From the IMG/VR virus record IMGVR_UViG_3300047476_000363, positions 1-24,987 of that record: 24,987 nt of DNA, one strand, 5' to 3'. Below the pieces are notes generated by a model. It saw only the letters and a list, made by a program, of their open reading frames with translations, was not told the origin of the DNA and searched no databases. Positions 1-16,707 of this stretch are shown piece by piece (positions within the stretch are counted from its first letter, which is position 1; each line of letters starts with the position of its first letter). The stretch comes from a virus. The position numbers were made by a program, and so were the translations under genes.

Positions 1-908
1 CTGATGTGCAGACTACACGTGGTCTTGTTTGGTTGGCTTCTGAACTCGAGAAGCAGAAGTTTGATTATGACAAGTGGTTGAGGGCGATCCTCAAGGAAAC
101 TGACAATCAGGAAATCTCTCGTCAAGCTGATGAGGTTCTACAGACCTATATCTCAGATACAACTTATGCTAACCCAGTTCACTCTGGTATCGCTGGTTGG
201 TTTGACCGTTATCCGCGCATTCCTTATGGTCGCGCTACTTCTTACACTCAACATAATTACGACAAGTTCAAGATGTCGTTCCCATTCCTTCAGTCACTGA
301 ACCGTGGTTTCAAGGATCTGCTTCCGTGGCGTTGGGGCAATCAGAAAGCAGCTGCCGATAAGATTGATTCAAAGTTCCTGGTTCCTGGCACTGTATTCAC
401 TACGGTAACTGTTAACAAGACTTTCCGTACTGCTTGCCATCGTGATGCTGGTGACTTCTCATCAGGCTTGAGCAATCTTCTTGTACTCTCGAACAATGGT
501 AACTACAGTGGTGGCTACCTTGTATTCCCTGAGTATCGTATTGCTGTTAATGTTCGACCAGGTGATTTGTTGCTCGTTAACAATCATGAGATTATTCACG
601 GTAACACACCAATCGTTATGCATGATGATGTTGCTGAACGTATCAGTCTTGTTTGCTATTTCCGCGAAAAAATGCTAGAATTAGGTTCCTACGAATATGA
701 GAACCTGCGCTATGAGTTTGTTGAGTCGCGACGTAAGAATCAAGAGCATGAACTCTGGCGTCCTCTGTGGAATGGTGTCTCTGCTGGTATGTGGGAAAGC
801 AAGGAATGGTATGGCTACCTTGAGTCCAATGGTGGACTTGAGATGCTGAATAATTATCATCCAGAAGCCAATCAAAAGAATGCATCCTTGGAGGATCTGT
901 TTCAGTGA
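1..908 (+). CDS. TET/JBP-type 2-oxoglutarate/Fe(II) DNA base dioxygenase, 5' partial
   Basis: Predicted 2-oxoglutarate- and iron-dependent dioxygenase that would hydroxylate a pyrimidine methyl group (thymine or 5-methylcytosine) in phage DNA. Numbering from the GTG at 6, the double-stranded beta-helix core is visible: HxD iron ligands H145 and D147 (CHRDAGD), a GGYLVFPEY strand near 169-177, RPGDLLL near 184-190, the distal iron ligand H198 in IIHGNTPI, and R212 as likely 2-oxoglutarate ligand. The HGN-P-I pattern fits the TET/JBP branch. The frame is open to the window edge and GTG 6 has no visible ribosome site, so the true start is probably upstream. The C-terminus is SLEDLFQ, nearly identical to the ends of the next gene and of the DNA polymerase; I infer a sliding-clamp-binding peptide. 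The stop overlaps the next GTG start (GTGA). Thymine versus cytosine specificity cannot be read from the sequence. Confidence 0.8.
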   Translation, partial: DVQTTRGLVWLASELEKQKFDYDKWLRAILKETDNQEISRQADEVLQTYISDTTYANPVHSGIAGWFDRYPRIPYGRATSYTQHNYDKFKMSFPFLQSLNRGFKDLLPWRWGNQKAAADKIDSKFLVPGTVFTTVTVNKTFRTACHRDAGDFSSGLSNLLVLSNNGNYSGGYLVFPEYRIAVNVRPGDLLLVNNHEIIHGNTPIVMHDDVAERISLVCYFREKMLELGSYEYENLRYEFVESRRKNQEHELWRPLWNGVSAGMWESKEWYGYLESNGGLEMLNNYHPEANQKNASLEDLFQ

Positions 909-2230
909 AAATCCTATCTGTAGTTCATGACTTTAACAACTTTGGTGGTATCATTTCCCATTGCGAGCAGCTAATCGCTGGCTTCAAGGATCTGGGCCAC
1001 CAAGCTGACTTTGTATATCTGCGTTCAACTCGATCTGGTGGTACGATCGCACCAACGGATGATCCTGGATTTGATATTGGAGAAGGCACTGGATTGCAGG
1101 TGCATCAGGGTAAGGGCTGGCGTGGTGAGTATCTGTCATTCATCAATGACAACGATATTGCTACTTTCGTCAAGAAGGCGAACGAGTACGATATCGTTAT
1201 CTGGCAATCAATCTTTGGGTTCAAGAATCAGGAGTCTGAGAAGAAGACTAACTGGCTAAAGATGATTCAAGATGTGAATGCCAAGCAGGTTGTTATTGTA
1301 CACGACGGTAACCTGCGCAAGAACTATCCTTGGATTCATCGTGTTCGTGACAAGATTGCTGGTCTTGCCTGCGTTCATCCTTCAGCATACAACCAAGCTG
1401 CTGCTATGGAGATTCCTCGCCGACTAATTGTGAATCCTCAGAAGATTTCTTCTATGCCAGAGGTTCCCTTTGATGATCGTAAGGATGTTGTTTTCTCACT
1501 TCAAACATTCAAGCGTTGGAAGCGAGTTGATGACCTAGTAGCAGCTGTGCCATATATAAATGGCAAGGTTGTTATTGCTGGTGATGGTATTGAACGTGCT
1601 TATATGGCATCAAAGGATAAGTGCAAGCCTGAGTATTATTGCACCAAGGATCGTGATCCGAATGCTGCTGATGCTCTTATCGGCAAGCCTATCTGGGCTA
1701 ACGCTGAGAATGCTGGTATGAAGTACATTGGCTTTGTTTCAGAAGCCAAGCGAGATGAGATTCTAAGCAAGGTGAAGTTCTTGCTTGATCCTTCTTGGTC
1801 CAAGACTTATGGCGAGCACTTCAATCGTGTTGTTGTAGATGCTATGAAGCAGGGAGTTGTTCCTATTGCTCGTAACCTTGGGATCAGTGATAATGAGTCT
1901 GGCGTTGGCTTCTTCAAGCCTAACGAAAATTATCTGATGATTCCTTGGAATGCAACACCGCAGGAGTTCGGTGAACTAATCAACACTTGGTTCAATATGT
2001 CTGAGTCTGACTACAATCGCATTGTCCAGAATAACTGGAAGCTGATTCAGCAGTTCGACCGCAAGTTGATTGCTCAGCAATACATTGATCTTGCTACTGG
2101 AATTGCCAGCACTGAAACTGGCAAGTATGATAGCAAGCTTGATAGCACCATTGATTCTGTTTGGTGCGACCACTTCGGGTTTCCTGAGAAGATGAACCCT
2201 GTATCTTCTCTAGAAGATTTGTTTGGTTGA
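905..2230 (+). CDS. GT-B (GT4-like) glycosyltransferase with C-terminal clamp-binding-like tail
   Basis: 441-aa protein with a two-domain GT-B layout. The N-terminal acceptor domain starts MKILSVVHDFNNFGG, and a C-terminal nucleotide-sugar domain runs from about residue 195 (VFSLQTFKRWKRVDDL, then VVIAGDG near 222-228). An E/D pair typical of GT4 donor sites lies in TYGEHFNRVVVDAMKQG (E304, D312). It starts at GTG 905, which overlaps the dioxygenase stop, with GGAGG at 889-893 as ribosome site; that site is encoded by the codons of the upstream SLEDLF tail. Coupled to a base dioxygenase, it most likely glycosylates the hydroxymethyl group made by that enzyme, as in hypermodified phage DNA. 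It ends in SSLEDLFG, matching the dioxygenase and polymerase tails. Established parallel: T4 alpha-glucosyltransferase interacts with gp45. Donor sugar and acceptor are not determinable. It could instead act on a non-DNA substrate, but its position argues against that. Confidence 0.8.
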   Translation: MKILSVVHDFNNFGGIISHCEQLIAGFKDLGHQADFVYLRSTRSGGTIAPTDDPGFDIGEGTGLQVHQGKGWRGEYLSFINDNDIATFVKKANEYDIVIWQSIFGFKNQESEKKTNWLKMIQDVNAKQVVIVHDGNLRKNYPWIHRVRDKIAGLACVHPSAYNQAAAMEIPRRLIVNPQKISSMPEVPFDDRKDVVFSLQTFKRWKRVDDLVAAVPYINGKVVIAGDGIERAYMASKDKCKPEYYCTKDRDPNAADALIGKPIWANAENAGMKYIGFVSEAKRDEILSKVKFLLDPSWSKTYGEHFNRVVVDAMKQGVVPIARNLGISDNESGVGFFKPNENYLMIPWNATPQEFGELINTWFNMSESDYNRIVQNNWKLIQQFDRKLIAQQYIDLATGIASTETGKYDSKLDSTIDSVWCDHFGFPEKMNPVSSLEDLFG

Positions 2231-2269
2231 TATATAGTAGGTTGTTATTAATTTTGATTGGAGTATAAT

Positions 2270-3085
2270 ATGCAATTAGAAATCTCGGTAGAGAAGCTGC
2301 GAAAAAACAAGCTGTTCGTAGCGACGCCAATGTATGGCGGTCAGTGCTTTGGTATGTACACCAAGTCGGCGCTAGATTTACAGGCTTTGTGCAATAGTTA
2401 TGGCATTGAAGTTAGGTTCTCGTTTATCTTTAACGAGTCTCTGATCACGCGTGCTAGAAACTATCTTTGCGACGAGTTCATTCGTTCTGGCTTCACGCAT
2501 ATGCTGTTTATTGACAGCGATATTCACTTTGATCCGCGAGATGTTATTGCGCTGATGGCTCTTGATAAGGATGTCAGTGGCGCACCTTATCCAAAGAAGT
2601 CTCTTAAGTGGCACGCAGTCAAGGAAGCTCTTACCAAGAATCCCAATCTATCAGCTTCTGAACTGGAAAAGGTTGTTGGCGACTTTGTCTTCAATCCAGT
2701 TCCTGGCACAGAGCGATTTAATGTTGGCGAGCCTGTTTCGGTTCTTGAGATTGGCACTGGGTTTATGCTCATCAAGCGTCCTGTCTTTGACAAGCTTGCT
2801 GAGAAGTTCCCGATGATCCATTACAAGCCAGATCATGTTGGCCAGGCTAACTTTGATGGTTCGCGTTACATTCATGCGTATTTCGATACCGTCATTGATA
2901 CCAAGGATAGCATCACTGGTGGTGGCTCTGATCGTTACCTGTCTGAGGACTATATGTTCTGTCAGATGTGGCGAAAGATCGGTGGCGAGATCTTCCTGTG
3001 TCCTTGGATGAAGACTCACCATATCGGAACCTATGCGTTCACTGGTGACCTGCCTGCTGTAGCCAATTACGTGGGCAACCTGTGA
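2270..3085 (+). CDS. GT-A fold glycosyltransferase (phage type)
   Basis: 271-aa protein with the hallmarks of a GT-A enzyme: an N-terminal strand LFVATPMYGG (15-24), NESLITRARN (55-64), and the metal/donor DxD in LFIDSDIHFDP (D82, D84). A C-terminal SEDYMFCQMWRKIGGEIFL and HHIGTYAF segment resembles the acceptor and metal-ligand region of such enzymes. I chose ATG 2270 because GGAG at 2260-2263 sits 6 nt upstream; an in-frame TTG at 2258 would add four residues and overlap that site. Its stop overlaps the GTG of the dNMP kinase. Third in line after the dioxygenase and the GT-B enzyme, it may add a second sugar to the modified base or act on the same intermediate. It lacks the LEDLF tail. The family is known in phages, usually without an assigned substrate. 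Confidence 0.7.
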   Translation: MQLEISVEKLRKNKLFVATPMYGGQCFGMYTKSALDLQALCNSYGIEVRFSFIFNESLITRARNYLCDEFIRSGFTHMLFIDSDIHFDPRDVIALMALDKDVSGAPYPKKSLKWHAVKEALTKNPNLSASELEKVVGDFVFNPVPGTERFNVGEPVSVLEIGTGFMLIKRPVFDKLAEKFPMIHYKPDHVGQANFDGSRYIHAYFDTVIDTKDSITGGGSDRYLSEDYMFCQMWRKIGGEIFLCPWMKTHHIGTYAFTGDLPAVANYVGNL

Positions 3086-3750
3086 TCATCGGACTAGTCG
3101 GCTCAATCGGCAGTGGTAAGGGAACCATTGCCGATACATTAGTTGACTACCATGGTTTCTTCAAAGAGAGTTTCGCTAATAGTGTGAAGGACGCGGTCTC
3201 AGTCATCTTTGGCTGGGATCGCAGCCTCCTCGAAGGCGACACAGATGAATCTAGGTGGTGGCGTGAACAGAAAGACTCATGGTGGTCTGAGAAACTGAAT
3301 CGCGATTTCTCTCCCAGACTAGCGTTACAGTTGATGGGTACAGAAGCAGGTCGTGACGTATTTCACCAGGATCTGTGGGTTTACACAATGCTACAGAGAC
3401 TTGAAAATGCACCTTGGAATGACTATGTGATTGCCGATGTAAGATTCCCAAACGAGATCAAGATGATCAGTGATCTTGGTGGTAAGATCGTTCAAGTAAA
3501 CCGAGGTGAAAAGGTTGCTTGGTATGAAAAGGCATATGAAACGAATACCAAGGCCAACTATTATGGCATGGCTGAAAACTTCCCAGACGTTCATTACAGT
3601 GAATGGGCTTGGATTGGTCATCCTAAAATTGACATGGCGTTCGATAACAACTGTGAACTGAGTCAGTTGCCAAGACGAGTTGACATTATGCTTGATAACT
3701 TATATAATAAACACATTGATGGCGTTGATACAAGTGAGGTAATACTATGA
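3082..3750 (+). CDS. 1: Deoxynucleoside monophosphate kinase (T4 gp1-like)
   Basis: 222-aa P-loop kinase (T4 gp1 is 241 aa). The Walker A motif lies at the N-terminus in GLVGSIGSGKGTIADTL (GSIGSGKGT near residues 7-15). A DVRFPNE segment near 119-125 is the usual second active-site stretch of the dNMP kinase family. It phosphorylates dNMPs to dNDPs; T4 gp1 acts on dTMP, dGMP and hydroxymethyl-dCMP. It starts at GTG 3082, overlapping the upstream stop, and its own stop overlaps the clamp ATG at 3747, so it links the base-modification block to the replication block in one predicted transcript. With the downstream dUTPase and dCMP deaminase it would feed dTTP synthesis. Substrate range here is inferred from the family. 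Confidence 0.82.
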   Translation: MIIGLVGSIGSGKGTIADTLVDYHGFFKESFANSVKDAVSVIFGWDRSLLEGDTDESRWWREQKDSWWSEKLNRDFSPRLALQLMGTEAGRDVFHQDLWVYTMLQRLENAPWNDYVIADVRFPNEIKMISDLGGKIVQVNRGEKVAWYEKAYETNTKANYYGMAENFPDVHYSEWAWIGHPKIDMAFDNNCELSQLPRRVDIMLDNLYNKHIDGVDTSEVIL

Positions 3751-4418
3751 AGTTGAGTGCTGAGACTATTGAAATTCTTAAGAATTTCTCCACGATTAAC
3801 CAGAGCATCCAGGTCAAGAGTGGTAACACTCTGTCTACGATCTCTGCTCTTAAGACTGTGCTGGCCACTGCGCAAGTGCCCGACACGTTCCCAACTGAGT
3901 TTGCGATCTATGATCTGAACAAGCTGCTCGCCAAGCTTTCTCTGTATAAGGATTCGGAACTGACGTTTGATGCTGATAAGGTTAACTTCGCCAGTGCTGA
4001 TAAGAAGCGCGCAGACTATATCAAGTATTGCTCGCCTAGCGTTATCGTCACGCCTCCCGATAAGAAGCTGTCGATCGGCGTTCCTGACTTTGAGTTCAAG
4101 CTGAGCAAGTCTGATCTTGAGTGGCAGCGCAAGTCGGCAAGCATTTCTGGTTCGCCTAATTTCGTTTTCGTTGGTGATGGCAGTAAGGTATACTTCGTGT
4201 CGAAGGACATTAAGGATAACTCGGCTGACGTTTCCAAGACTGAGATTGGCGCAACGGATCAGACGTTTGAGATTGTTATGAAGGTTGAGAACTTCAAGAT
4301 GATTGATGACACGTACACCGTGCAGATTGCGAAGCGTGGTCTGGCAAAGTTCACTGCCGAGTCGCGTAGTCTTGAATACTATGTTGCCATTGAGGCAGCG
4401 CAGTCGAAGTTTGAGTAA
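3747..4418 (+). CDS. 45: Sliding clamp, DNA polymerase processivity factor (gp45)
   Basis: 223 aa, close to the 228 aa of T4 gp45. Recognised by the N-terminal MKLS...ILKNF.TIN...KSGN pattern, by AIYDLNKLLAKLSL (compare T4 AIYDLNGFLGILSL), and by the C-terminal ...AKFTAESRSLEYYVAIEAA, which lines up with T4 AAKFEGEHANYVVALEA. It forms a trimeric ring loaded by gp44/gp62 that tethers the polymerase to DNA; in T4 it also activates late transcription and binds alpha-glucosyltransferase. ATG 3747 overlaps the kinase stop (ATGA), with GAGG at 3736-3739 as ribosome site. This is the presumed receptor for the LEDLF tails seen on the polymerase, dioxygenase and GT-B enzyme. Confidence 0.92.
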   Translation: MKLSAETIEILKNFSTINQSIQVKSGNTLSTISALKTVLATAQVPDTFPTEFAIYDLNKLLAKLSLYKDSELTFDADKVNFASADKKRADYIKYCSPSVIVTPPDKKLSIGVPDFEFKLSKSDLEWQRKSASISGSPNFVFVGDGSKVYFVSKDIKDNSADVSKTEIGATDQTFEIVMKVENFKMIDDTYTVQIAKRGLAKFTAESRSLEYYVAIEAAQSKFE

Positions 4419-4435
4419 GAACGGAGATATATACT

Positions 4436-4702
4436 ATGAGAACGTTGAATGAACAGCAGAGGAAGGACATTAAGAACTGCCTCTCTGAGATCTCTAACTC
4501 GTACACTCGTATTGAGGCCGAGCGCGATCTGATCAAGGAAGTGATCAATCGCATGGCTGATGAGTTTGAGATGAACAAGAAGCTGTCTCGTCGTCTTGCC
4601 AAGATCTACCATAAGCGTAATCTTGAAGAGGAGATGGCAGCTGCTGAAGAAGTTAGTGATACATATGAATTAATTGTTGGACATAATCCCAACAATACTT
4701 GA
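4436..4702 (+). CDS. Small helical protein, similar to T4 DsbA
   Basis: 88 aa, charged and predicted mostly helical. From memory it resembles T4 DsbA (89 aa, a double-stranded DNA-binding protein linked to late transcription) in length and in a mid-to-C-terminal pattern: a D-I-K-E-V helix, an acidic MADEFEMNKKLSRRLAKIYHK stretch containing the shared YHK, then an acidic helix ending near SDTYELI. The ATG is preceded by CGGAGA at 4422-4427. It lies between clamp and clamp-loader genes and is followed by a 105-nt gap holding a folded element. The family call rests on a short pattern only; the safe statement is a small T4-type conserved protein. Confidence 0.5.
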   Translation: MRTLNEQQRKDIKNCLSEISNSYTRIEAERDLIKEVINRMADEFEMNKKLSRRLAKIYHKRNLEEEMAAAEEVSDTYELIVGHNPNNT

Positions 4703-4708
4703 TTTTTC

Positions 4709-4784
4709 TTGGGGCGAGCGTTATAGTACGCTACGGCACTTCCGCCAGACTGCTCGTCGTGGGACTTCACCCTCCCCGCCCCAA
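4709..4784 (+). promoter_or_regulatory. GC-rich structured leader element upstream of gp44
   Basis: A 76-nt segment closed by a perfect 8-bp helix: TTGGGGCG (4709-4716) pairs with CGCCCCAA (4777-4784). Inside it is a perfect 5-bp hairpin AGCGT-TATAGT-ACGCT (4717-4732), followed by possible short stems CGG/CCG, GAC/GTC and GTG/CAC. It is GC-rich between AT-rich flanks, and the ribosome site and ATG of gp44 follow 24 nt later. It is not a tRNA: there is no anticodon arm with a 7-nt loop and no TTC-type T loop. It may be a translational control element, an RNA-processing site or a terminator without a U tract. Function is inferred only from the fold. Confidence 0.5.
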
Positions 4785-4807
4785 CCTTTATATTATGGAG
4801 TTACACT

Positions 4808-5743
4808 ATGTCTGATATGCTTTGGGTTGAGGTTTATCGGCCGAAGACTGTGCAGGATTGCATTCTGCCAGAGGATCTAAAGAATACGTTTCAACAGTAC
4901 GTGGATCGCAAGGAAATTCCCAATCTCCTTCTCTGCGGAACAGCTGGTGTTGGTAAGACTACTGTAGCCAAGGCTCTTTGTGAAGAGGTTGGTTGCGACT
5001 ATATGATGATCAACGGTTCAGACGAGTCTGGTATTGATACCTTCCGTATGAAGATCAAGAACTATGCTTCGTCGATGTCGTTCACTGGAACCAAGAAGGT
5101 CATTATTATTGATGAAGCGGATTATCTGAATCCGAATAGTACGCAGCCAGCTATGCGTGCTGCGATGGAAGAGTTCGCTCATAACTGTACGTTCATTATG
5201 ACCTGTAACTTCAAGAACAGGATTATTGAGCCGCTGCATTCTCGGTGCGCTGTCATCGACTTCAAGCTTCGTAAGGAAGACAAGCCAAAGATGGCTGCGC
5301 AGTTTATGAAGCGAGCGGCTAACATTCTAAAGCAGGAAAATGTGCCTTTTGACAATTCAGTTCTTGCTGAGGTTGTCAAGAAGTATTTCCCTGACTATCG
5401 CCGAGTGCTAAATGAACTGCAGCGTTATGCGGTCAGTGGTAAGATCGACAACGGAATCCTTTCGTCAGTTGCTGATGTCAGCGTCAAGGAGTTGGTCGCG
5501 GCTCTCAAGGCCAAGGACTTCACCTCTATGCGCAAGTGGGTTGTAGATAATGGTCATGATGATGCAGCCAGGGTGTTTCGTAAGATCTACGATAACCTGT
5601 ACGATTACATGGACAAGGGTTCTATTCCCCAGGCTGTGCTGATTCTGGCTCGCTACCAGTACCAGGCTGCATTCGTTGCGGATCATGAGTTGAATCTGGT
5701 TGCTTGCATGACTGAACTGATGACAGAATGTGAGTATGTGTGA
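4808..5743 (+). CDS. 44: Clamp loader ATPase large subunit (gp44)
   Basis: 311-aa AAA+ ATPase (T4 gp44 is 319 aa). It shows an N-terminal WVEVYRPKT box, Walker A GTAGVGKT (44-51), Walker B IIIDEAD (99-105), a sensor-1-like TCNFKNRI (132-139), and the clamp-loader SRC arginine-finger motif (145-147). A C-terminal helical collar follows. With gp62 it opens the gp45 ring and places it on primer-template junctions using ATP. ATG 4808 has GGAG at 4797-4800. The stop overlaps the gp62 start (TGATG), consistent with translational coupling and a fixed subunit ratio. The GC-rich folded leader just upstream may control its translation, and RegA, encoded two genes on, represses gene 44 translation in T4. 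Confidence 0.93.
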   Translation: MSDMLWVEVYRPKTVQDCILPEDLKNTFQQYVDRKEIPNLLLCGTAGVGKTTVAKALCEEVGCDYMMINGSDESGIDTFRMKIKNYASSMSFTGTKKVIIIDEADYLNPNSTQPAMRAAMEEFAHNCTFIMTCNFKNRIIEPLHSRCAVIDFKLRKEDKPKMAAQFMKRAANILKQENVPFDNSVLAEVVKKYFPDYRRVLNELQRYAVSGKIDNGILSSVADVSVKELVAALKAKDFTSMRKWVVDNGHDDAARVFRKIYDNLYDYMDKGSIPQAVLILARYQYQAAFVADHELNLVACMTELMTECEYV

Positions 5744-6123
5744 TGGCTGATCTGTTCAGAGAGATTATACCAAGCATTCTTCAGACCAAGAAGAACTGTA
5801 TGCTGACTGAGCAGGACGAGAAGTCTTATCCTGCGTTCATGGTTGGTCGAGCCATGTCGCAGTATCCAGATACCGTTCTAGACGCCAACTATGTCAATAT
5901 GTGCGGTCATATCGACAACAAGCTTAAATACGACTTTTTACTAAATAAGGTCAAGCCTTACAAAAGACCTTATGTCAAATGGCATAAGAAGGCTGAAACC
6001 GATGATTTGGAAGTCGTAAAAGAATACTATGGCTACAGCACTGCCAGAGCACTAGAAGCTCTCCGTATTCTCACCGATGATCAGATCAAAGATCTAAGAA
6101 AAAGAATACAAAAAGGTGACTAG
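5743..6123 (+). CDS. 62: Clamp loader small subunit (gp62)
   Basis: 126 aa, shorter than T4 gp62 (187 aa). Recognised by its position directly after gp44 and by the pattern KSYPAFMVGRAMSQYPD, which matches T4 DYSKFMVENALSQFPE, followed by a KYDFLLNKV segment and RPYVKW. It is the non-ATPase subunit that completes the clamp-loader pentamer. I chose ATG 5743, which shares one base with the gp44 TGA stop; a GTG at 5740 is also in frame. The stop is followed one base later by the regA ATG. The missing length is at the C-terminus and in the N-terminal extension, as I recall for other distant T4 relatives. Confidence 0.82.
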   Translation: MADLFREIIPSILQTKKNCMLTEQDEKSYPAFMVGRAMSQYPDTVLDANYVNMCGHIDNKLKYDFLLNKVKPYKRPYVKWHKKAETDDLEVVKEYYGYSTARALEALRILTDDQIKDLRKRIQKGD

Positions 6124-6124
6124 C

Positions 6125-6523
6125 ATGGTTGAACAATTTATTGAAATTGAATTGGCAGAAAAAAATGACTTCCTGAAGGTTCGCGAGACTCTTACTCGTA
6201 TTGGCGTTGCTGCTAAGAACCAGAATGTTCTCTACCAGTCTTGTCACATCCTGCATAAACAGGGCAAATACTACCTCGTACATTTCAAGGAACTGTTTGC
6301 TCTAGATGGTAAGCCAAGCAATATGTCTGAGAACGATGTTGCCAGACGTAACGCAATCGCTAATCTGATTGCAGAATGGGGTCTCGTGAAGTTGGTTGAT
6401 CCAATCAGATCAAAGGAACCTATCGCCCCATTGAGCCAGATCAAGATCCTACCGCATAAGGAAAAGCTTGACTGGGAGTTGGTTGCCAAGTACAATATTG
6501 GAAAGAAGAAGCGAGAGGAATAA
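6125..6523 (+). CDS. regA: RegA translational repressor
   Basis: 132 aa (T4 RegA is 122 aa). Very clear conservation: DFLKVRETLTRIG, NVLYQSCHILHKQGKYYLVHFKE, RRNAIANLIAEWGLV and a C-terminal DWELVAKYNIG, each with close counterparts in T4 RegA. It binds AU-rich translation-initiation regions of early phage mRNAs and blocks ribosome binding; T4 targets include gene 44 and regA itself. I chose ATG 6125 with AAAAGG at 6111-6116 as ribosome site; an in-frame GTG at 6116 would lie inside that site. It is the last member of the 45-44-62-regA cluster and is followed four bases later by dUTPase. Confidence 0.95.
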   Translation: MVEQFIEIELAEKNDFLKVRETLTRIGVAAKNQNVLYQSCHILHKQGKYYLVHFKELFALDGKPSNMSENDVARRNAIANLIAEWGLVKLVDPIRSKEPIAPLSQIKILPHKEKLDWELVAKYNIGKKKREE

Positions 6524-6527
6524 CTGT

Positions 6528-7549: not shown

Positions 7550-7552
7550 CAA

Positions 7553-7567: not shown

Positions 7568-7574
7568 AGTTTCC

Positions 7575-7594: not shown

Positions 7595-7637
7595 TCCGTT
7601 TGGGTCAAATTCTGTCCCTCCCAGCGCCTCAGTGTAC

Positions 7638-9589: not shown

Positions 9590-9603
9590 TTCAGGAGAAT
9601 ACT

Positions 9604-9873: not shown

Positions 9874-9898
9874 ACTTATACTTCTTAAGGAGCAACTA

Positions 9899-10363
9899 AT
9901 GTGGCTGAGTAGGAAACCATACCATTTCACGCAGGCTGGTATCGACGAGATCAGCCGCCACTATGGCGCTCAGTACATGGGACATTGGTGCACCAGTAGC
10001 AAAGATGGCTATTGGCACGAAACTCCAGTAGACGTATTCTATCAGCCTAATCCTGATACATCCAAGGGCCACTCACACTACTTCGGGATGTTTACTCGTA
10101 ATGGCGATGTACTGATCACCAACGCCGAGTCTGCATTTCAGTGCTATATAGTTGGTGCTCTGGATACAGTGACTGATGAGGTTCTTGTGAGCCGTTATCG
10201 TCATGACTATCAGCGTAGCAACCAAGCGTTTATCGACGGTGGTCGCGACTATCTGAAAACGGATCCAGATGTGCCACTCGTACGAGTTACGGTGAATGGT
10301 TCCCAATTTAACTTTGAGGTGGTAGACGATGGAACTTGGCGAAGTGGAAGCACAGTACAATAA
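9899..10363 (+). CDS. Hypothetical protein, 154 aa
   Basis: 154 aa, soluble and rich in aromatic residues and His (HYGAQYMGHWCTSSKDGYWHETPVDVFYQ). It has no recognised fold; the middle GHSHYFGMFTRNGDVLITNAESAF looks like a beta-rich domain. I chose ATG 9899 with a strong AAGGAG at 9886-9891; the earlier in-frame TTG at 9860 would overlap the upstream gene. Its 3' end overlaps the next gene by 35 nt in another frame. Confidence 0.6.
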   Translation: MWLSRKPYHFTQAGIDEISRHYGAQYMGHWCTSSKDGYWHETPVDVFYQPNPDTSKGHSHYFGMFTRNGDVLITNAESAFQCYIVGALDTVTDEVLVSRYRHDYQRSNQAFIDGGRDYLKTDPDVPLVRVTVNGSQFNFEVVDDGTWRSGSTVQ

Positions 10364-10553
10364 GCTGAAAGAATATTTTGGAGACTCGCTGGCTGATCCT
10401 ATACATGAGCCGCGAGTTTTCGCATATCAGGTTCAGCTATATAATTGGCAACTAAACAGGAGCTACATCAATGCCAGCGAAAGTAGGATTGAAGAAAATC
10501 GGGAAGGGACGAGCGAAACTGGGGTCGAAGAAACGCCGAGCGAGGGCGGGTAA
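10329..10553 (+). CDS. Hypothetical small protein with acidic tail, 74 aa
   Basis: 74 aa. The N-terminal 45 residues look like an ordinary helical protein (MELGEVEAQYNKLKEYF). The last 27 are low-complexity and acidic, and are read in a different frame from the basic peptide at 10471. GAGGTGG at 10315-10321 is its likely ribosome site. The N-terminal part is more convincing than the tail, whose composition may be imposed by the overlapping frame. Confidence 0.45.
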   Translation: MELGEVEAQYNKLKEYFGDSLADPIHEPRVFAYQVQLYNWQLNRSYINASESRIEENREGTSETGVEETPSEGG

Positions 10554-10563
10554 GCGTGGCTAA
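10471..10563 (+). CDS. 30-residue highly basic peptide
   Basis: A 30-codon frame starting MPAKVGLKKIGKGRAKLGSK and ending in an Arg/Ala/Lys-rich tail; 13 of 30 residues are Lys or Arg and there are no acidic residues. A well-placed AGGAG (10458-10462) lies 8 nt before ATG 10471. Its TAA overlaps the GTG start of the next glycosyltransferase (10556), so it may couple translation into that gene. Composition suggests nucleic-acid or ribosome binding. It overlaps the end of the 10329 gene in another frame; whether one or both are expressed is open. Confidence 0.45.
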   Translation: MPAKVGLKKIGKGRAKLGSKKRRARAGKRG

Positions 10564-11299
10564 AGTTACTGTAATTACCGCAACTACAGGTAATCCAATC
10601 CTGAAGCGTAACATTGAGTCTGTCGCAAGACAGACTCATCAGGACATTACGCATTTAGTGATGATTGATGGACCCGAACACAATACCAAAGTGCAGAATA
10701 TCGAGAGCAGGCTGTATCTGCAAGATATGCATAAGGTCATATTCTATACTCTGCCATGGCCCCTTGGTAAAGATCGTTGGAATGGCCATAGAATCTATGG
10801 TGCATCAACTTATATGTGTGAGTCTGACTATGTGATGTATCTGGATGAAGATGTGTATCTGGAGCCTTCTCATATTGAAGATTGCATCAAAGTAATGGAA
10901 CAGGGTCATGACTGGGCTTTCTCACTACGAAAGATTGTTAACAAGGATGGCGACTATCTTTGTGATGATGACTGCGAGAGTCTAGGTAAGTGGTCAAGTG
11001 TTATGGATCCAAGAGATTATTTCGTCGATGTTAATTGCTACTTCTTACCATTAAAGCTGGCCATTCAGGTTTCGCCGATTTGGTATAGGAAAGCAAGAGA
11101 ACCTGGTGTGATGGAAGTAGATCGTGCAATGTGCCATGTTCTCCGACAGATAGCACCAAACTACGAGTCAACCTATAACCATACTGTGAATTATACTGTT
11201 GGCAACTCAGTCAATTCAGTGCAGCTAGAGTTTTTCACACAAGGCAACATTGAAATGAAGCGTAGGTATAACAATCAACTGCCTTGGAGAAAAGTATGA
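10556..11299 (+). CDS. GT2-like (GT-A) glycosyltransferase
   Basis: 247 aa. Typical GT2 start: VTVITATTGNPILKRNIESVARQTHQDITHLVMIDGP (strand, helix, then the DG of the donor site). The metal site is YVMYLDEDVYLEP (D97, D99). The GKDRWNGHRIYGASTYM helix between them is also family-like. The C-terminal part lacks a clear GT2 ED motif but contains MEVDRAMCHVLR. It starts at GTG 10556, overlapping the basic peptide stop; the stop overlaps the next ATG. It is the first of three consecutive glycosyltransferase-like genes. The substrate is unknown: modified DNA, virion protein or host glycan. Confidence 0.72.
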   Translation: MAKVTVITATTGNPILKRNIESVARQTHQDITHLVMIDGPEHNTKVQNIESRLYLQDMHKVIFYTLPWPLGKDRWNGHRIYGASTYMCESDYVMYLDEDVYLEPSHIEDCIKVMEQGHDWAFSLRKIVNKDGDYLCDDDCESLGKWSSVMDPRDYFVDVNCYFLPLKLAIQVSPIWYRKAREPGVMEVDRAMCHVLRQIAPNYESTYNHTVNYTVGNSVNSVQLEFFTQGNIEMKRRYNNQLPWRKV

Positions 11300-12045
11300 A
11301 AGCCTGTATCGCATCGTTCTTTATGAACAACATCAGCCATAAAACAGTACAACTACAAAAGAGTGTGGTTGAAAAATTCAATAAGAGTAAGTATCCGCAT
11401 TACTTGATGCAAGTCAATATGCCTCATGGTGTGGCTATAGATTATTTCTGGTCTCTAAATGGCAATCGAGTAAACAAAACATTCAAGCCAGAATTCAACA
11501 TCCAAAAGCAATTAGATTGCGACGTCATTCTTTTTCTAGACATTGATGCTATTCCTTTGCATGAAGATGCTATTGACTATTACATAGAGCAAGCAGCAAA
11601 GGGTAAGATCATCGGAAACGCTCAGCGCAGCAACCACATCGAAAACAATCAGCATGTATTCGCCGCGCCTTCAGCTATTGCTGTCTCAGCTGAGAACTTT
11701 GATCGCATGGGGCGTCCTTCAGCATATGAAACACCACGTGGTGATGTTGCAGAAGAATATACTTATGCTGCAGAAGCTGTTGGAATTGAAGTTGACTTGG
11801 TCATGCCATTACGGTATGATACTGCTCCTCAGAGATATGAGTGGGAAAAGAACCAACCACCATATTGGGCGCTTGCTGATGGTATGCCAGTCTATGGTAT
11901 GGGAACTACATATGGTAGAGAAGGAAAGGATCTGTTCTACCATAACTTCCAAATCCGTATGGAAGGGCAGCAGGAAAAGTTTTGGCGTAAATGTGAAGAT
12001 GTTTTAGTTGAGGGTATCTATGAAGATCGCAGTATTAAGCACTGA
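11296..12045 (+). CDS. GT-A-like glycosyltransferase
   Basis: 249 aa. The DxD-type metal site lies in DVILFLDIDAIPLHEDAI (D82, D84), preceded by a hydrophobic strand as in GT-A enzymes. A possible C-terminal metal-ligand His is in FYHNFQIR. The middle (NAQRSNHIENNQHVFAAPSAIAVSAENFDRMG) fits an acceptor loop. ATG 11296 overlaps the previous stop (ATGA); an earlier in-frame codon at 11284 is less likely. It overlaps the next gene by 26 nt. The call rests on the DxD context. Confidence 0.6.
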   Translation: MKACIASFFMNNISHKTVQLQKSVVEKFNKSKYPHYLMQVNMPHGVAIDYFWSLNGNRVNKTFKPEFNIQKQLDCDVILFLDIDAIPLHEDAIDYYIEQAAKGKIIGNAQRSNHIENNQHVFAAPSAIAVSAENFDRMGRPSAYETPRGDVAEEYTYAAEAVGIEVDLVMPLRYDTAPQRYEWEKNQPPYWALADGMPVYGMGTTYGREGKDLFYHNFQIRMEGQQEKFWRKCEDVLVEGIYEDRSIKH

Positions 12046-12859
12046 TTCAGAACAGTATCTGCTACAGTGGTGGTTGCCTCATCATGTTAAGAAGTTTGAT
12101 TTTGGTGTTATTCTTGACTTTGGTCTGACAGAAACAGATAACACATATGAGTTGTACAAGACTCATGCTCCTAATTGGAGATATCTTAAGATCAACCAAA
12201 AGACCATAGGATGTTTTCTTTGGGATGTGATCATCTCCAAGGTCGAACGAGATCTTCTGGATGAATTTCCTGGCAGTTGGGTTACCACACTAAACGCCAC
12301 TGAGTTTTTAATTGGCGATCTTCGCTCGCTAGACAAGATGTTGGAAAACACTCAAGTGTTAATGCCATGTCATTTGATGAACGACTCATTAGAACATGAA
12401 ATGGTTGAGCCTGATGTCAACAAGCCTCTTCTAGAACAGAGAACTCATGGTGTGCATTACAACAATGATTTCCCACACCCACATCAAGGCGAATCAATTA
12501 AACTGTTTAACCAGTTAAATCCGCCCAATGTTATGTTGAACACCAGATGGATGAGAAGCATACATAACTATAATGTAGATTATCTCTCGACATCGGTTTA
12601 TTCAGTTGGGCGACACTACTGGGAACCGATGAAGATGTCAACGCACTTGGCAATATGCCATATGAATTATGCTCCGTTCACCAGAGCGTTTATTGACAGA
12701 AAGTTAAATGTTCAAAATCGTCTAACAGAAGAAGACCACCGCGCTGATCGAGGAATACACCATAGAATAAATGAACAGACGATATATGACAGAAAGAGAT
12801 TCTATGATAGGTTGACTGTTGATTTGAAATCTTATATTGATAACTTGGAGAATGTATAA
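12020..12859 (+). CDS. GT92/Glyco_tranf_2_4-like protein with altered DxD
   Basis: 279 aa. The layout of the N-terminal half resembles the GT2_4/GT92 group: an EQYLLQWWLPHHVKKFDFGVILDFG segment (11-35), then SWVTTLNATEFLIGD at 86-100, where related enzymes have a D-x-D-E-F signature. Here the Asp positions are N92 and T94, only E95-F96 remaining, so the metal-binding site looks altered. The second half is His- and Trp-rich. ATG 12020 is chosen over the TTG at 12008; the gene overlaps the previous one by 26 nt. It may be an inactive partner, a metal-independent enzyme, or a distant family member that I have mis-aligned. Confidence 0.45.
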   Translation: MKIAVLSTDSEQYLLQWWLPHHVKKFDFGVILDFGLTETDNTYELYKTHAPNWRYLKINQKTIGCFLWDVIISKVERDLLDEFPGSWVTTLNATEFLIGDLRSLDKMLENTQVLMPCHLMNDSLEHEMVEPDVNKPLLEQRTHGVHYNNDFPHPHQGESIKLFNQLNPPNVMLNTRWMRSIHNYNVDYLSTSVYSVGRHYWEPMKMSTHLAICHMNYAPFTRAFIDRKLNVQNRLTEEDHRADRGIHHRINEQTIYDRKRFYDRLTVDLKSYIDNLENV

Positions 12860-13059
12860 TGGCTAATCGAAGTGACTTTTATGAGGCGAAGCTACCTCGC
12901 TATCTGAAGCGAATGCTGACGATGGCACAGGCAAGTGGCCATGTGACAAATGCGCATGAGGCTGGTGCTATGCGTCGCGCATTTATAGCGGCACACGCTA
13001 ATCATGTTGGATACAAGTTGCGCCGTCCTGGTGCAGATACATCAGAATCTGAAGAATAA
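12859..13059 (+). CDS. Conserved-looking small phage protein, 66 aa
   Basis: 66 aa, basic and helical. RSDFYEAKLPRYLKRML and NAHEAGAMRRAFIAAHANHVGYKLR is a pattern I recall from small T4-type phage proteins of unknown function. ATG 12859 overlaps the previous stop (TAATG). The TAA lies in a TAAATAAG sequence 11 nt before the tRNA. Confidence 0.6.
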   Translation: MANRSDFYEAKLPRYLKRMLTMAQASGHVTNAHEAGAMRRAFIAAHANHVGYKLRRPGADTSESEE

Positions 13060-13069
13060 ATAAGAGGAT

Positions 13070-13144
13070 TGCGGGGTAGTTCAGCAGCAGAACACTGGAC
13101 TCATAATCCAGGGGTCATGGGTGCAACTCCCATCCCCGCTACCA
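13070..13144 (+). tRNA. tRNA-Met (CAT anticodon), unpaired 1:72, CCA encoded
   Basis: Complete cloverleaf: acceptor TGCGGGG (13070-13076) with CCCCGCT (13134-13140), six pairs and a T-T mismatch at 1:72. D stem is GTTC/GAAC with a 7-nt loop. The anticodon stem is CTGGA/TCCAG with loop CTCATAA and anticodon CAT at 13102-13104. The variable loop is 5 nt, the T stem ATGGG/CCCAT, and the discriminator A is followed by an encoded CCA (13142-13144). The 1:72 mismatch is an initiator-tRNA hallmark, but the D stem has Y11:R24 (elongator type) and only two of three anticodon-stem G-C pairs. The D loop lacks GG, and the T loop is TGCAACT with G at 55. Confidence 0.93.
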
Positions 13145-13151
13145 ATTAATC

Positions 13152-13661
13152 ATGCTGTTAACATCTTTTATTCTATTTCTCGTCTTTGGGTATCTCCCAG
13201 TTGTTTTGCTCTTGTTTGGTGCAAGAAGAAGGTTGAATATTGTAGTCAATAATTATATTGAACTTCGGCAAGAATACAACAAGACCAAAGAACTCGCTGA
13301 TCTGTGCGCCAAGTATGTTGTTAAACAACATGGTGGTTCTGATGAAGACGAGGAAGAAGATGACGAAGAAGATGACGAAGAAGATGAGTATGAGGAAGAA
13401 TATGTTCCAAGCTCATCTTATCGCAGAGAGCCGACAAGTAATCGCTCATATTCTCAACCAGAGAGAAAGCAAGAAAATGTCAGTTACATAATCGAGAGGA
13501 TGCCGCCACCGTATCGTCTTGGATATATGAACGCTGGCTATTCTTCTGATGAGATTAGTGCAATTAATAAAGCGCAATCAGTATCAAGATTCCACCCAGA
13601 AGACAAAGTTCGAGTTGTTGAGGTCTGCGGCAGCAGAAAATGTTCGATATGGAGTAATTGA
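13152..13661 (+). CDS. Membrane-anchored protein with Asp/Glu stretch
   Basis: 169 aa. One strong N-terminal hydrophobic segment (residues 2-22) is followed by RRR (25-27), as in a signal anchor with the C-terminus in the cytoplasm. A helical part follows, then an uninterrupted acidic run at about 64-83 (nearly all D or E), a Ser/Arg/Tyr-rich linker and a small C-terminal domain (YIIERMPPPYRLGYMNAGYSSDEISAINKAQ). ATG 13152 is 7 nt after the tRNA, with no good ribosome site. No family recognised. The acidic run could mimic nucleic acid. Confidence 0.55.
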   Translation: MLLTSFILFLVFGYLPVVLLLFGARRRLNIVVNNYIELRQEYNKTKELADLCAKYVVKQHGGSDEDEEEDDEEDDEEDEYEEEYVPSSSYRREPTSNRSYSQPERKQENVSYIIERMPPPYRLGYMNAGYSSDEISAINKAQSVSRFHPEDKVRVVEVCGSRKCSIWSN

Positions 13662-13662
13662 T

Positions 13663-13935
13663 TTGCACACTATAGTAGAGCTTCGAGAGCTGTTTCAGCA
13701 GCATAAGATCAGAATCGAAGAATCAATGGGCTGGTACTTGAAATGTAATGGCGACAGATGGACCATGTTAGATGATGTGTACTATCTGAATGACAAGCCA
13801 GTAACAAAGAAAGAAGTTTCAGCATACGCAAAGAAGGGTTCAGTTGCGAAACGGGATCCTGCATTTTCAAAAAAGATGACACCAAAAGAAGGATATGAAC
13901 ATGACAGTGAAAGCATTGAAGTTGACGACGAGTGA
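13663..13935 (+). CDS. Hypothetical protein, 90 aa, TTG start
   Basis: 90 aa with a basic middle and an acidic tail (ESIEVDDE). The best start is TTG 13663, just after the upstream TGA (13659-13661), with GGAG at 13651-13654 eight nt before it; this gives MHTIVELRELFQQHKIRIEESMGWYLK. An in-frame ATG at 13549 would overlap the upstream gene by 113 nt and has no ribosome site, so I reject it. The 3' end overlaps the next gene by 35 nt. No function recognised. Confidence 0.55.
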   Translation: MHTIVELRELFQQHKIRIEESMGWYLKCNGDRWTMLDDVYYLNDKPVTKKEVSAYAKKGSVAKRDPAFSKKMTPKEGYEHDSESIEVDDE

Positions 13936-14200
13936 AGAAATTCTTGGCGAAGTTGTAGTTGAAAACGACAAGGTCGTCGCACTCAAGAATGTAGTTGCAG
14001 TTGCTATTCAGCCTGGCCCAGATGGTCGTGCGGCATTGGGCTTCTTGCCTTTCATGCCATACCTTGGCAAGAACAAGACAATTACATTTGATATCGACCA
14101 TATTATTTTGTGTGAAGAAGTTGACGATGCGATGGCAAACCAGTATAATAGCGTATTCGGCGGAATTGTTGTGCCGCCAAAGCAGCTAATTACGGGGTAA
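13901..14200 (+). CDS. Sm/LSm-like small phage protein
   Basis: 99 aa. VKALKLTTSEEILGEVVVENDKVVALKNVVAVAIQP is the typical strand order of an Sm-like fold. The C-terminal EVDDAMANQYNSVFGGIVVPPKQLIT is very like a family I recall from T4-type cyanophages. ATG 13901 has AGAAGGA at 13887-13893; ATG 13895 is less likely. It lies directly before DNA polymerase (2-nt gap). It probably forms an oligomeric ring that binds RNA or protein, but no specific role is known. Confidence 0.65.
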   Translation: MTVKALKLTTSEEILGEVVVENDKVVALKNVVAVAIQPGPDGRAALGFLPFMPYLGKNKTITFDIDHIILCEEVDDAMANQYNSVFGGIVVPPKQLITG

Positions 14201-14202
14201 GA

Positions 14203-16707
14203 GTGAAATTCTACACGAATGTTTTGGTCTATGGTAAGTCGATCCTCTATCGCGGTGTTGAAGACGGCAAGCGAGTTGCTCGCCGCATAGAGTATCGGCC
14301 TACGTTTTATGTGCCCGCAAAGGGACGCTCTGAGTGGCGTACCCTTTCGGGTGACTACGTTGAACCCATCGAACCTGGGAACATCAACGATGCGCGTGAA
14401 TTCATCGAGAGATACAAGGACGTTGATACGTTTCCCATCTATGGTCTCAATCGTTATGAATATGCGTTCATCTCTGATGAATTCCCAGACGATGTCTTTT
14501 GGGATAGGGATCAGGTCAGGGTCTGCTATCTTGATATCGAGGTTGCTTCTGATGATGGCTTTCCTGAGCCAGCAGATGCTAACAAAGAAATTACAGCCAT
14601 CACCGTAAAGACTGGTGATTACACTCACACATATGGCTGTGGCGAATACACTCCTCATAAGACTGGCCTTGGGTACAGCAAGTGTTCCAACGAACATGAG
14701 TTGTTGACTAGGTTCGTAAATGACTTCAGTGAATCGCATCCAGATATCATCACTGGTTGGAACGTCAAGTTCTTTGACATTCCGTATCTCGTAAATCGTA
14801 TCACGCGTGTTCTTGGCGAGGACTACACGATCAAGCTTTCGCCATGGAAGAAGGTGAGCCAGCGCGAGACTACGATTATGAATCGTGTACAGATTCACTT
14901 CGACATCTTCGGTATCGCCATCCTTGACTATCTTGATCTGTACAAGAAGTACAGCTTCACACCTCAAGAGTCGTATAGGCTTGACCATGTTGCCTCTATG
15001 GAACTGGGTGAGAAGAAGATCGACTACTCTGAGTTCGCTAATCTTCATGAGTTGTACAAGCATGACTTCCAAAAGTTTATCGAGTATAACATCAAGGACG
15101 TTGAGCTTGTCGAGAAGCTGAACGATAAGGGCAGGTTGATTGAGCTTGCTCTGACTCTTGCGTACGATAACAAGGTTAACTATGATGATGTGTTCTCGCA
15201 GGTTCGTATGTGGGATACCATCATCTACAACCATCTGAAGAAGAGCAAGATCGTCATTCCTCAGATGAAGCAGGGCGAGAAGGCTGCAGCATACGAAGGC
15301 GCATATGTCAAGGATCCGCTCGTTGGTATGCATAACTGGGTTGCTTCGTTTGACCTGAACAGTCTGTATCCGCACTTGATTATGCAGTACAACATCTCAC
15401 CAGAGACGCTGACTCATGTCAATGGTATTCCTACGGTTGATGTTCTGACTCTGCTAAATCAAACTCATGATCTTTCTGCGCTCAAGGAATTGGAAGTTAC
15501 GCTGACGCCGAACAATCAGTTCTTCAAGACCAAGAAGCAGGGTTTCCTGCCGAAGATCATGGATACGATGTACAAGGATCGTAGCCGATACAAGAAGATG
15601 GCCATGGACGCCAAGAAGAAGATTGAGAAGGTTCGTGATGACAAGGTTCAGGTTGAGTATCTCGAGAAGGAAATCGCCAGATACAATAACCTACAGATGG
15701 CAAAGAAGGTATCTCTGAACTCAGCTTATGGCGCGATTGGCAATAAATACTTCCGATTCTTCGACATCCGCATCGCCGAAGCAATCACTCTATCGGGTCA
15801 GCTGTCGATTCGCTGGATTGAGAACAAGCTGAATGGCTACATGAGCAAACTTGTACAGAAGGAACAGGACTATGTCATTGCGTCAGATACTGATTCCATT
15901 TATCTCAACCTTGCTCCACTGGTTGATAAGTTCATACCGAAGGAAAAATCGACTGCTGACGTTATCAGACTCATGGACAAAATCTGTGAAGATAAGGTTC
16001 AACCTTTTATTGATAAGTCTTATCAAGAGCTTGCTGACTACGTTAACGCATATAGCCAAAAGATGCAAATGAAGCGAGAGACCCTCGCCAACAAAGCAAT
16101 CTGGACTGCAAAGAAACGATATATCTTGAATGCGTACAACGTCGAAGGCGTTGAGTATGCAGAGCCAAAGCTCAAGATCATGGGTCTTGAGGCGATCAAG
16201 TCGTCAACTCCTGCTGCTTGCCGTGACAAGATTAAGCAAGCGTTCAAGATTATCATGAGCCAAGACGAAGCTAGGATGATCTCTTTCATTGAGCAGTTCA
16301 GAGAAGAATTCAGGAAGCTGCCGATTGAGGATATTTCGTTCCCTCGCTCTGTGAATGGTGTGACTGAATACTATGACGCTCTACACATCTTCAAGAAGGG
16401 AACTCCTATCCATGTCAAGGGCGTGCTGGTGTATAACCATGCGATCAACGAGCGCAAACTAAATAAAAAGTATCAACTCATCAAAGAAGGTGAGAAGATC
16501 AAGTTTTGCTATCTCAAGCAGCCCAATCCGTTCAAGAACAATACTATAGCGTTCTTGAATGCTCTGCCTAAAGAGTTGCGCGTTGAAGAGTTTATTGACT
16601 ACGACTTGCAGCTTGAGAAGTCATTCATAGAACCTCTTAAGATTATTCTTGATTGTATTGGATGGCGAGTTGAACACACAGCTACTCTAGAGGATTTGTT
16701 CTCATGA
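14203..16707 (+). CDS. 43: DNA polymerase, family B (gp43)
   Basis: 834-aa replicative polymerase (T4 gp43 is 898 aa). The 3'-5' exonuclease motifs are intact: Exo I YLDIEV (D111, E113), Exo II GWNVKFFDIPY (N187, D192), Exo III YNIKDVEL (Y295, D299). Polymerase motifs: A SFDLNSLYP (382-390, D384), B KKVSLNSAYGAIGN (501-514), C ASDTDSIYL (560-568, D562, D564). It starts at GTG 14203, 2 nt after the Sm-like gene. The C-terminus ATLEDLFS is the expected gp45-binding peptide and closely matches the tails of the dioxygenase and GT-B genes at the left end. The GAGGA in the codons of that tail also serves as ribosome site for the next gene, whose ATG overlaps the stop. Confidence 0.97.
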   Translation: MKFYTNVLVYGKSILYRGVEDGKRVARRIEYRPTFYVPAKGRSEWRTLSGDYVEPIEPGNINDAREFIERYKDVDTFPIYGLNRYEYAFISDEFPDDVFWDRDQVRVCYLDIEVASDDGFPEPADANKEITAITVKTGDYTHTYGCGEYTPHKTGLGYSKCSNEHELLTRFVNDFSESHPDIITGWNVKFFDIPYLVNRITRVLGEDYTIKLSPWKKVSQRETTIMNRVQIHFDIFGIAILDYLDLYKKYSFTPQESYRLDHVASMELGEKKIDYSEFANLHELYKHDFQKFIEYNIKDVELVEKLNDKGRLIELALTLAYDNKVNYDDVFSQVRMWDTIIYNHLKKSKIVIPQMKQGEKAAAYEGAYVKDPLVGMHNWVASFDLNSLYPHLIMQYNISPETLTHVNGIPTVDVLTLLNQTHDLSALKELEVTLTPNNQFFKTKKQGFLPKIMDTMYKDRSRYKKMAMDAKKKIEKVRDDKVQVEYLEKEIARYNNLQMAKKVSLNSAYGAIGNKYFRFFDIRIAEAITLSGQLSIRWIENKLNGYMSKLVQKEQDYVIASDTDSIYLNLAPLVDKFIPKEKSTADVIRLMDKICEDKVQPFIDKSYQELADYVNAYSQKMQMKRETLANKAIWTAKKRYILNAYNVEGVEYAEPKLKIMGLEAIKSSTPAACRDKIKQAFKIIMSQDEARMISFIEQFREEFRKLPIEDISFPRSVNGVTEYYDALHIFKKGTPIHVKGVLVYNHAINERKLNKKYQLIKEGEKIKFCYLKQPNPFKNNTIAFLNALPKELRVEEFIDYDLQLEKSFIEPLKIILDCIGWRVEHTATLEDLFS

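Follow-up and report, generated by a model that had tools for sequence, protein, structure and literature searches.

Putative Clamp-Binding Tails and DNA Modification in T4-Type Phages

The sliding clamp gp45 of T4-type bacteriophages is bound by the DNA polymerase gp43 and by the late-transcription proteins gp55 and gp33 through C-terminal motifs of hydrophobic and acidic residues, which are freely interchangeable; an 11-residue peptide of gp43 has been crystallized on the RB69 clamp, with one of the three sites of the trimer occupied (according to a 2010 review, PMC2988020). In T4, gp43 ends in SLDFLFG, gp55 in SLDFLYEAND, and a 112-residue open reading frame (ORF), gp33 by its length, in TLDFLL; the first two share the form L-[D/E]-x-[L/F]-aromatic, and the epitope follows a flexible linker. 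Here we analyze a virus record of 24,987 bases, IMGVR_UViG_3300047476_000363 (the window, that is, the whole stretch of DNA), in which a short hydrophobic-acidic tail of this kind ends three proteins, namely a T4-type family B polymerase, a TET/JBP-type DNA dioxygenase and a GT-B glycosyltransferase (GT). Whereas the known clients of the clamp are the polymerase and the late-transcription factors, here the tail is carried by putative DNA-modification enzymes. The reading that we favor, with a probability of about 0.82, is that both the dioxygenase and the GT belong to the client proteins of gp45, to which they would be tethered by a polymerase-type tail so as to modify DNA after its synthesis.

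The closest described enzyme is the T4 alpha-glucosyltransferase (AGT), a DNA base-glycosylating enzyme of the GT-B fold that has been reported to bind gp45 (Sommer 2004, as cited in PMC13216743 and PMC6024577). Both T4 precedents, the tails of gp43, gp33 and gp55 and the AGT contact, had been invoked in the preliminary description of the window, and these sources agree with it. In a 2026 paper, AGT bearing a His tag at its C-terminus pulls down gp45, and the share of modification due to AGT is credited mostly to promoter and upstream regulatory elements and to Shine-Dalgarno strength, not to clamp binding (PMC13216743). Unlike the window GT, AGT ends in SFCFKEQFDIITK and has no tail. Given this and the success of the pull-down despite the His tag, AGT probably binds gp45 in another way. 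In T4, the nucleotide is hydroxymethylated before synthesis, and there is no dioxygenase step.

Closer in chemistry are phage cassettes that combine a TET/JBP dioxygenase with a TAGT or another glycosyltransferase, which the 2013 work of Iyer and the 2021 work of Burke reportedly describe. As proposed for the window, a methyl group is oxidized on DNA and then conjugated, and the genes adjoin. The difference lies in the tail: within the open-licence literature searched, whose matches did not include the main phage TET papers, there was no report of a clamp tail in these cassettes, of a tagged TET/JBP enzyme or of a tag common to modification enzymes, and the relatives encoded by HTVC112P and P12024L, phages in which gp45 was not detected, are tail-less. 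In eukaryotes, DNMT1 is likewise a DNA-modifying enzyme that is brought to the replication clamp, PCNA, by its own binding segment, whereas the putative PCNA-binding domain of Tet1 does not drive its recruitment (PMC9440122); a clamp-tagged phage TET enzyme would be the working counterpart. The clamp-tethered dioxygenase-GT pair had been proposed as a new organization; this stands for the tagged TET/JBP enzyme, as far as the literature searched extends, but clamp-bound DNA modification as such is already known from AGT and DNMT1.

Three Window Proteins with the Same C-Terminus

Translation gives the C-termini NASLEDLFQ* for the dioxygenase (positions 3-908), VSSLEDLFG* for the GT (905-2230) and ATLEDLFS* for the polymerase (14203-16707), all on the plus strand, as are the other annotated features below. 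Each thus terminates in [S/T]LEDLF plus one residue, as originally described, and the tails SLEDLFQ, SLEDLFG and TLEDLFS occupy positions 885-905, 2207-2227 and 16684-16704, respectively. The dioxygenase had been placed at 1-908; its end is correct, and its frame runs from base 3, the 5' end of the gene being cut by the window edge. A LEDLF-type end is found in none of the remaining 36 of the 39 automatically picked genes of the window, nor in the remaining 20 of the 23 listed ORFs, and the tail is absent from the proteins at 2258-3085, 10556-11299, 11284-12045 and 12008-12859, which are other putative glycosyltransferases or unassigned.

For counting, the tail was defined as [STNADG][LI][DE]x[FLM][FWY] at most four residues from the protein end. 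By this pattern, three of the 39 window genes are tailed compared to 0.02 expected from the density of the pattern inside proteins (Poisson P ~1e-6); since the pattern was devised after the tails had been seen, the independent evidence comes from relatives. With the tails removed, the three proteins show no significant mutual similarity (best cross-match E = 0.087), in agreement with the initial claim that they are otherwise unrelated; homology or duplication of the tailed proteins is rejected. The codons of the tails are TCC TTG GAG GAT CTG TTT in the dioxygenase, TCT CTA GAA GAT TTG TTT in the GT and ACT CTA GAG GAT TTG TTC in the polymerase, and these differences point to selection on the peptide. 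A search of the window's own record with a DNA-level tail pattern in which only CTN leucine codons were allowed yielded no match.

The Dioxygenase and the Glycosyltransferase

The dioxygenase belongs to the 2-oxoglutarate (2OG)-Fe(II) enzymes of the TET/JBP type (Pfam Tet_JBP, E = 1.6e-24; phrog_24024, E = 9e-121), and contig L007, which is 100% identical over the common part, holds the whole protein of 455 amino acids. In the alignment of relatives, H146, D148, H199 and R213 are invariant; in line with the family, the first three are assigned as the HxD...H iron ligands and R213 as the 2OG-binding arginine. The best fold matches of the structural model in PDB are NgTET1-DNA, which ranks first, CcTet, CMD1 and TET2. 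None of 20 related records, a set that includes DLP_6, C48C1 and Cr30 but not the window fragment, yielded a C5-cytosine methyltransferase (PF00145). Together with the ADDT enzymes found in related viruses, which are linked to hydroxymethyluracil, this makes thymine a likelier substrate than 5-methylcytosine.

The GT is a GT4-like member of the GT-B fold (Glycos_transf_1, E = 2.5e-8). Its model superimposes on T4 AGT (1ya6) with Z = 25.5 and a root-mean-square deviation of 3.5 over 333 aligned residues, a score at the top of the fold matches but tied with those of HepE and other GT4 enzymes; the match to the alpha-glucosyltransferase family phrog_2888 is weak (E = 0.0085 over ~54 residues), and a search against named phages gave no match. 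The protein is best read as a DNA glycosyltransferase, and transfer of a sugar to a hydroxymethylated base is suggested by the tail and the gene order. Genes for an NDP-sugar (nucleoside diphosphate sugar) dehydratase/epimerase, a nucleotidyltransferase and an RmlD-like protein are located at 21320-23961; these could supply the sugar donor of the GT or serve surface glycosylation.

In both models, the tail sits behind an end region of low confidence, with predicted local distance difference test (pLDDT) values of 65 and 52 for the last residues of the dioxygenase (mean 79) and of 57 and 46 for those of the GT (mean 88). A flexible linker is accordingly predicted for the dioxygenase; in the GT, the linker amounts to only a few residues and is partly conserved.

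Conservation of the Tail in Relatives

A search of the TET/JBP and glycosyltransferase proteins of related phages for the same terminal motif had been proposed in the preliminary description. Searches of IMG/VR retrieved at least 80 dioxygenase, 57 GT and at least 80 polymerase loci, the two sets of 80 favoring close relatives, and conservation was counted over the distinct ends (last 60 residues) of all loci gathered. Among the matches listed, the tail is kept in 83 of the 89 dioxygenases, 32 of the 35 GT-B enzymes and 74 of the 75 polymerases. Among the six dioxygenases that deviate, three are from L123 (TLTDLFG), L028 (TLDAFL) and Cr30 (GATLF), and the other three come from phages without detectable gp45; the three GT-B misses are 36-39% identical relatives on contigs where gp45 was not found, and in the only polymerase miss (L180) the reading frame seems to be interrupted. 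In the dioxygenase alignment, the entropy of the anchoring L is 0.33 bits and that of the last aromatic residue (F) 0.22 bits, compared to ~1.6-3.3 bits in the preceding 22 residues. Both anchors are invariant in the GT-B enzymes, where the body just upstream is conserved as well.

These alignments bear on the possibility that the LEDLF codons (CTN-GAG-GAY, with GGAGGA-like cores) are a by-product of the Shine-Dalgarno sequence of an overlapping next gene. The codons TTG GAG GAT of the dioxygenase tail indeed contain GGAGGA, located shortly before the GT start codon at 905 and thus where the ribosome-binding site of the GT gene would be expected, and the polymerase tail adjoins a gene start at 16704. 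However, a GGAG, GAGG or AGGA core is present in only 35 of the 83 dioxygenase, two of the 32 GT-B and 33 of the 74 polymerase tails; the tail of the window GT (CTA GAA GAT) has no such core, and the next likely start is ~40 nucleotides away; at every position, the residue is kept despite synonymous codon changes, and the variants FF, LW and MF occur. The core counts and codon variation largely refute this explanation, which is hardly credible as the cause of the tail and is rejected.

The Tail and the Presence of gp45

The clamp gene was sought with phrog_223 in the records behind most loci, many of which are contig fragments. A full tail is present in 32 of the 34 gp45-positive dioxygenase records, the exceptions being Cr30 and L028, whereas gp45 was found in none of the 47 records with a readable tail-less dioxygenase end (the genomes of S-CBWM1, HTVC112P and P12024L in addition to 44 contigs, of which many are incomplete; L414, cut before its end, was excluded). 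Apart from that of S-CBWM1, these tail-less dioxygenases form two groups, HTVC112P-like and P12024L-like, with no gp45 found in either; among the records of the search that gathered these groups, only L247 is gp45-positive, and its dioxygenase ends in TLEDFF. Dioxygenases and GTs that keep the body and lack the tail, which the preliminary description had named as the observation that would speak against it, thus do exist, but where gp45 was not found; the exception is Cr30, which has gp45 yet a degenerate end (GATLF).

Other enzymes of these phages lack the tail as well. S-CBWM1 encodes a tail-less TAGT, as do L429 and L440 from the HTVC112P group, and a tail-less ADDT is encoded in L433, L434, L234, L238, L240 and L243 of the HTVC112P and P12024L groups; the gp45 search covered all of these group contigs except L440 and L243. 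The TAGT of S-CBWM1 (L004), which lies beside the tail-less dioxygenase, ends in HELEDLLP although gp45 was not found, possibly a remnant.

A different partner for the tail, such as the host beta clamp, the clamp loader or a C-terminal protease or degron system, might be envisaged, given that short hydrophobic-acidic C-terminal peptides can play such roles and that the motif resembles the PCNA-interacting peptide (PIP) motifs and those of the bacterial beta clamp, which are QL[SD]LF-like. The distribution of the tail makes this improbable: in each of the 11 gp45-positive records of the genome census described below, the viral family B polymerase itself bears the tail, which is absent from the two dioxygenase groups without detected gp45 although their bacterial hosts have beta clamps.

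A Census of Tailed Genes

The pattern was applied to 2,694 predicted genes on pieces of 12 records (T4, P-SSM4, C48C1, S-CBWM1, seven long IMG/VR contigs and the window); Cr30 and DLP_6 were left out because the ORF picker loses genes in both. The pattern was changed twice before it took its final form: an earlier version matched three of the 39 window genes, none of 285 in Cr30 and one of 256 in DLP_6 (a chance-like ELERLL end), and a looser one matched at most five genes in any record, several being small, chance-like ORFs, and none in S-CBWM1. In the final census, 26 of the 2,694 genes are tailed against 1.26 expected, with no match to the reversed pattern and one in the N-terminal control.

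Of these 26 tails, 12 belong to DNA-modification enzymes from five families, 11 to polymerases and one to T4 gp55, and two are unexplained. The modification enzymes are six dioxygenases, two GT-B enzymes, one TAGT (PF20691, E = 8.2e-9), two D12 N6-adenine methyltransferases (E = 1.4e-23 and 1.8e-24) and one ADDT (PF18724, E = 1.3e-21). Each gp45-positive record holds one of the tailed polymerases, and S-CBWM1 has no tailed gene. As searches for dioxygenases, GTs, polymerases and methyltransferases had supplied the records, these families were to be expected; the TAGT, the C48C1 methyltransferase and the ADDT appeared before any search was aimed at them. The unexplained tails are in a 74-residue ORF of G006 and in the T4 gp26-like baseplate protein of C48C1 (L292:7098-7805; PF12322, E = 1e-59), which ends in AGIDDFF, by chance or through another use of the tail.

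Beyond the census, tails were counted in 37 of 43 D12 methyltransferases and seven of 10 TAGT proteins, and gp45 was found in 12 of the 18 methyltransferase contigs searched. Among the ADDT homologs, 22 of 87 distinct ends match a loose pattern, and most others end in a GLE-x-F/I/L-like variant that was not counted. In all the sequences gathered, a set biased in that the loci were fetched by these very families, 311 of the 328 tailed ORFs of at least 70 amino acids belong to six families; the other 17 include T4 gp55, a GT4-like enzyme beside a dioxygenase, another TAGT (E = 4.6e-35), one endonuclease of the HNH type and one nuclease of the BglII-like type. The latter (L337:4998-5528; PF09195, E = 5.2e-12), encoded directly 3' of a tailed D12 methyltransferase, ends in NNIENFFE and is possibly a clamp-tagged nuclease; the HNH/NUMOD4 endonuclease (L126:7242-7853) ends in NNLETLFS. 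According to the annotation, the DLP_6 polymerase ends in LDSFFA and the TAGT of this phage in LSSFFN. The gp55 proteins of Cr30 (L222:21198-21788) and DLP_6 (L224:20579-21211) have no recognizable clamp tail, and the TAGT-like proteins of these phages, gp122 in the case of Cr30, end in DLSKLF and DLSSFFN, respectively; the reverse is seen in T4, with a tailed gp55 and a tail-less AGT.

The variety of tailed families also bears on the idea that the tails reflect a common origin of the 3' ends of the genes, or recombination there, and not function. Two of the tailed window genes are neighbors, and where a dioxygenase and a GT share a locus, their tails are frequently alike (LF in both for 20 of 29 distinct pairs); nevertheless, the window tails use several different synonymous codons with no nucleotide-level identity seen there, and unrelated families in different phages bear such tails. 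This origin is very improbable.

The tag is wider than the dioxygenase-GT pair and occurs on several unrelated modification enzymes of related viruses. Tentatively, with the odds somewhat below even, the tail may be viewed as a portable address tag that T4-type phages attach to many acquired DNA-modification enzymes (TET/JBP, GT-B, TAGT, ADDT, N6-adenine methyltransferase and perhaps the BglII-like nuclease), so that the trimeric gp45 ring would act as a tool belt common to polymerase, oxidizer and decorator, and hypermodification as an assembly line just behind the fork. If so, the C-terminus by itself could reveal new DNA-modification enzymes.

Proposed Clamp-Tethered Modification and Its Limits

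Under the clamp-tethering reading, each enzyme would dock on gp45, a trimer with more than one site, by a flexible segment followed by [S/T]-L-[D/E]-x-[L/F]-F, as the polymerase does. After synthesis, the clamp would retain the dioxygenase on the freshly made duplex, allowing it to hydroxylate a pyrimidine methyl group; the GT, tethered likewise, would then cap the hydroxyl. The tethering of the two enzymes, which the preliminary description had proposed, is well supported at the level of sequence comparison by the form of the tail, which is that of the T4 epitope, its presence on the phage's own polymerase and its distribution relative to gp45.

Several observations weigh against this reading. 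First, 27 records whose dioxygenase bears the full tail likewise gave no gp45; most are fragments, and they include L248 and L055, a contig of 84 kb. With L029 (TLDAFL), this set comes to 28. In 13 of these, a T4-type polymerase is present in the fetched stretch, and the clamp gene could just be located outside the contig. Second, among gp45-positive phages, the Cr30 dioxygenase has the degenerate end given above and the Cr30 ADDT has no tail, L028 ends in TLDAFL, and the Dam enzymes of cyanophages Syn19 and P-SSM4 stop before the tail; the Dam ends of P-TIM40, S-WAM1 and S-SZBM1 have diverged, and all five of these cyanophages have gp45. Third, a quick tree of 106 dioxygenase bodies (last 10 residues removed; long-branch warnings) requires only two changes of the tail, so the link with gp45 amounts to approximately one evolutionary switch, and Fisher's test (with 48 tail-less records) overstates it and is not independent evidence. 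Fourth, because the fold of the GT matches non-DNA GT4 enzymes equally well, its assignment to DNA depends on the tail and the gene neighborhood. Finally, AGT is reported to bind gp45 without a tail, such that the tail is not the sole route to the clamp, and the credit given to expression signals in the AGT study implies that clamp binding need not be limiting, which argues against a strong kinetic role.

These last points are related to a milder alternative, in which the tail is a clamp tag but a minor aid that raises local concentration, modification being mostly post-replicative and clamp-independent, as suggested for AGT. The expression data on AGT fit this view, as do the gp45 phages whose Dam enzymes have no tail. 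However, the tail is kept in most relatives of several enzyme families, which argues for a real fitness cost of its loss, and we consider a minor role rather unlikely.

Clamp tethering would bear on how a rapidly replicating phage genome can be modified for the most part ahead of attack by host nucleases: the tag would offer a simple mechanism for oxidation and conjugation within DNA, parallel to DNMT1-PCNA in eukaryotes. It also suggests an annotation rule, namely that a C-terminal [ST]L[DE]x[LF]F in T4-like genomes marks proteins acting on replicating DNA, and this rule may separate DNA-targeting glycosyltransferases from envelope ones.

Replication Genes and Modification Cassettes

The replication genes of the window are of the T4 type and include, in addition to UvsX and a DnaB-like helicase, the gp45-type clamp, the presumed docking partner (3747-4418; phrog_223, E = 2.4e-60; gp45-slide_C, E = 5.2e-7; 30% identity to T4 gp45, E = 8.6e-22), the large clamp-loader subunit gp44 (4808-5743; Gp44_lid, E = 6.7e-19), the small subunit gp62 (5740-6123; Phage_clamp_A, E = 3.1e-11) and the polymerase gp43 (phrog_262, E = 0, 1075 bits; DNA_pol_B, E = 1.3e-27). 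The modification genes had been described as running into the clamp gene through small overlaps and one short gap, and this is indeed the arrangement. The dioxygenase and GT genes overlap by 4 nucleotides (905-908), further 4-nucleotide overlaps are located at 3082-3085 and 3747-3750, and the gap follows the GT, from 2230 to an ORF opening at TTG 2258, for which ATG 2270, preceded by GGAG, is a likelier start. Between the GT and the clamp lie the genes for a phrog_1574 protein and a deoxynucleoside monophosphate kinase, both without the tail. The former (2258-3085) has a weak Anp1 match under the Pfam cut-off.

In 89 distinct cases, the gene directly 3' of the dioxygenase encodes a GT-B enzyme (25), a TAGT (seven) or another protein (55), with two unreadable. 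Both genes have tails or near-tails in all 25 GT-B cases and in six of the seven TAGT cases, the seventh being S-CBWM1. Five of the other next genes were looked up, two of which are glutamine-amidotransferase-like and three have no family match; ADDT genes are nearby in many loci whose next gene is neither GT-B nor TAGT. In L010:2630-4403 and L008:5177-6722, the dioxygenase is followed by a glutamine-amidotransferase-like gene and then by a GT-like or weakly amidoligase-like gene, perhaps for an amide-type hypermodified base. The phrog_1574 protein comes next after the GT-B enzyme in 24 of the 25 cassettes and after the TAGT in six of the seven.

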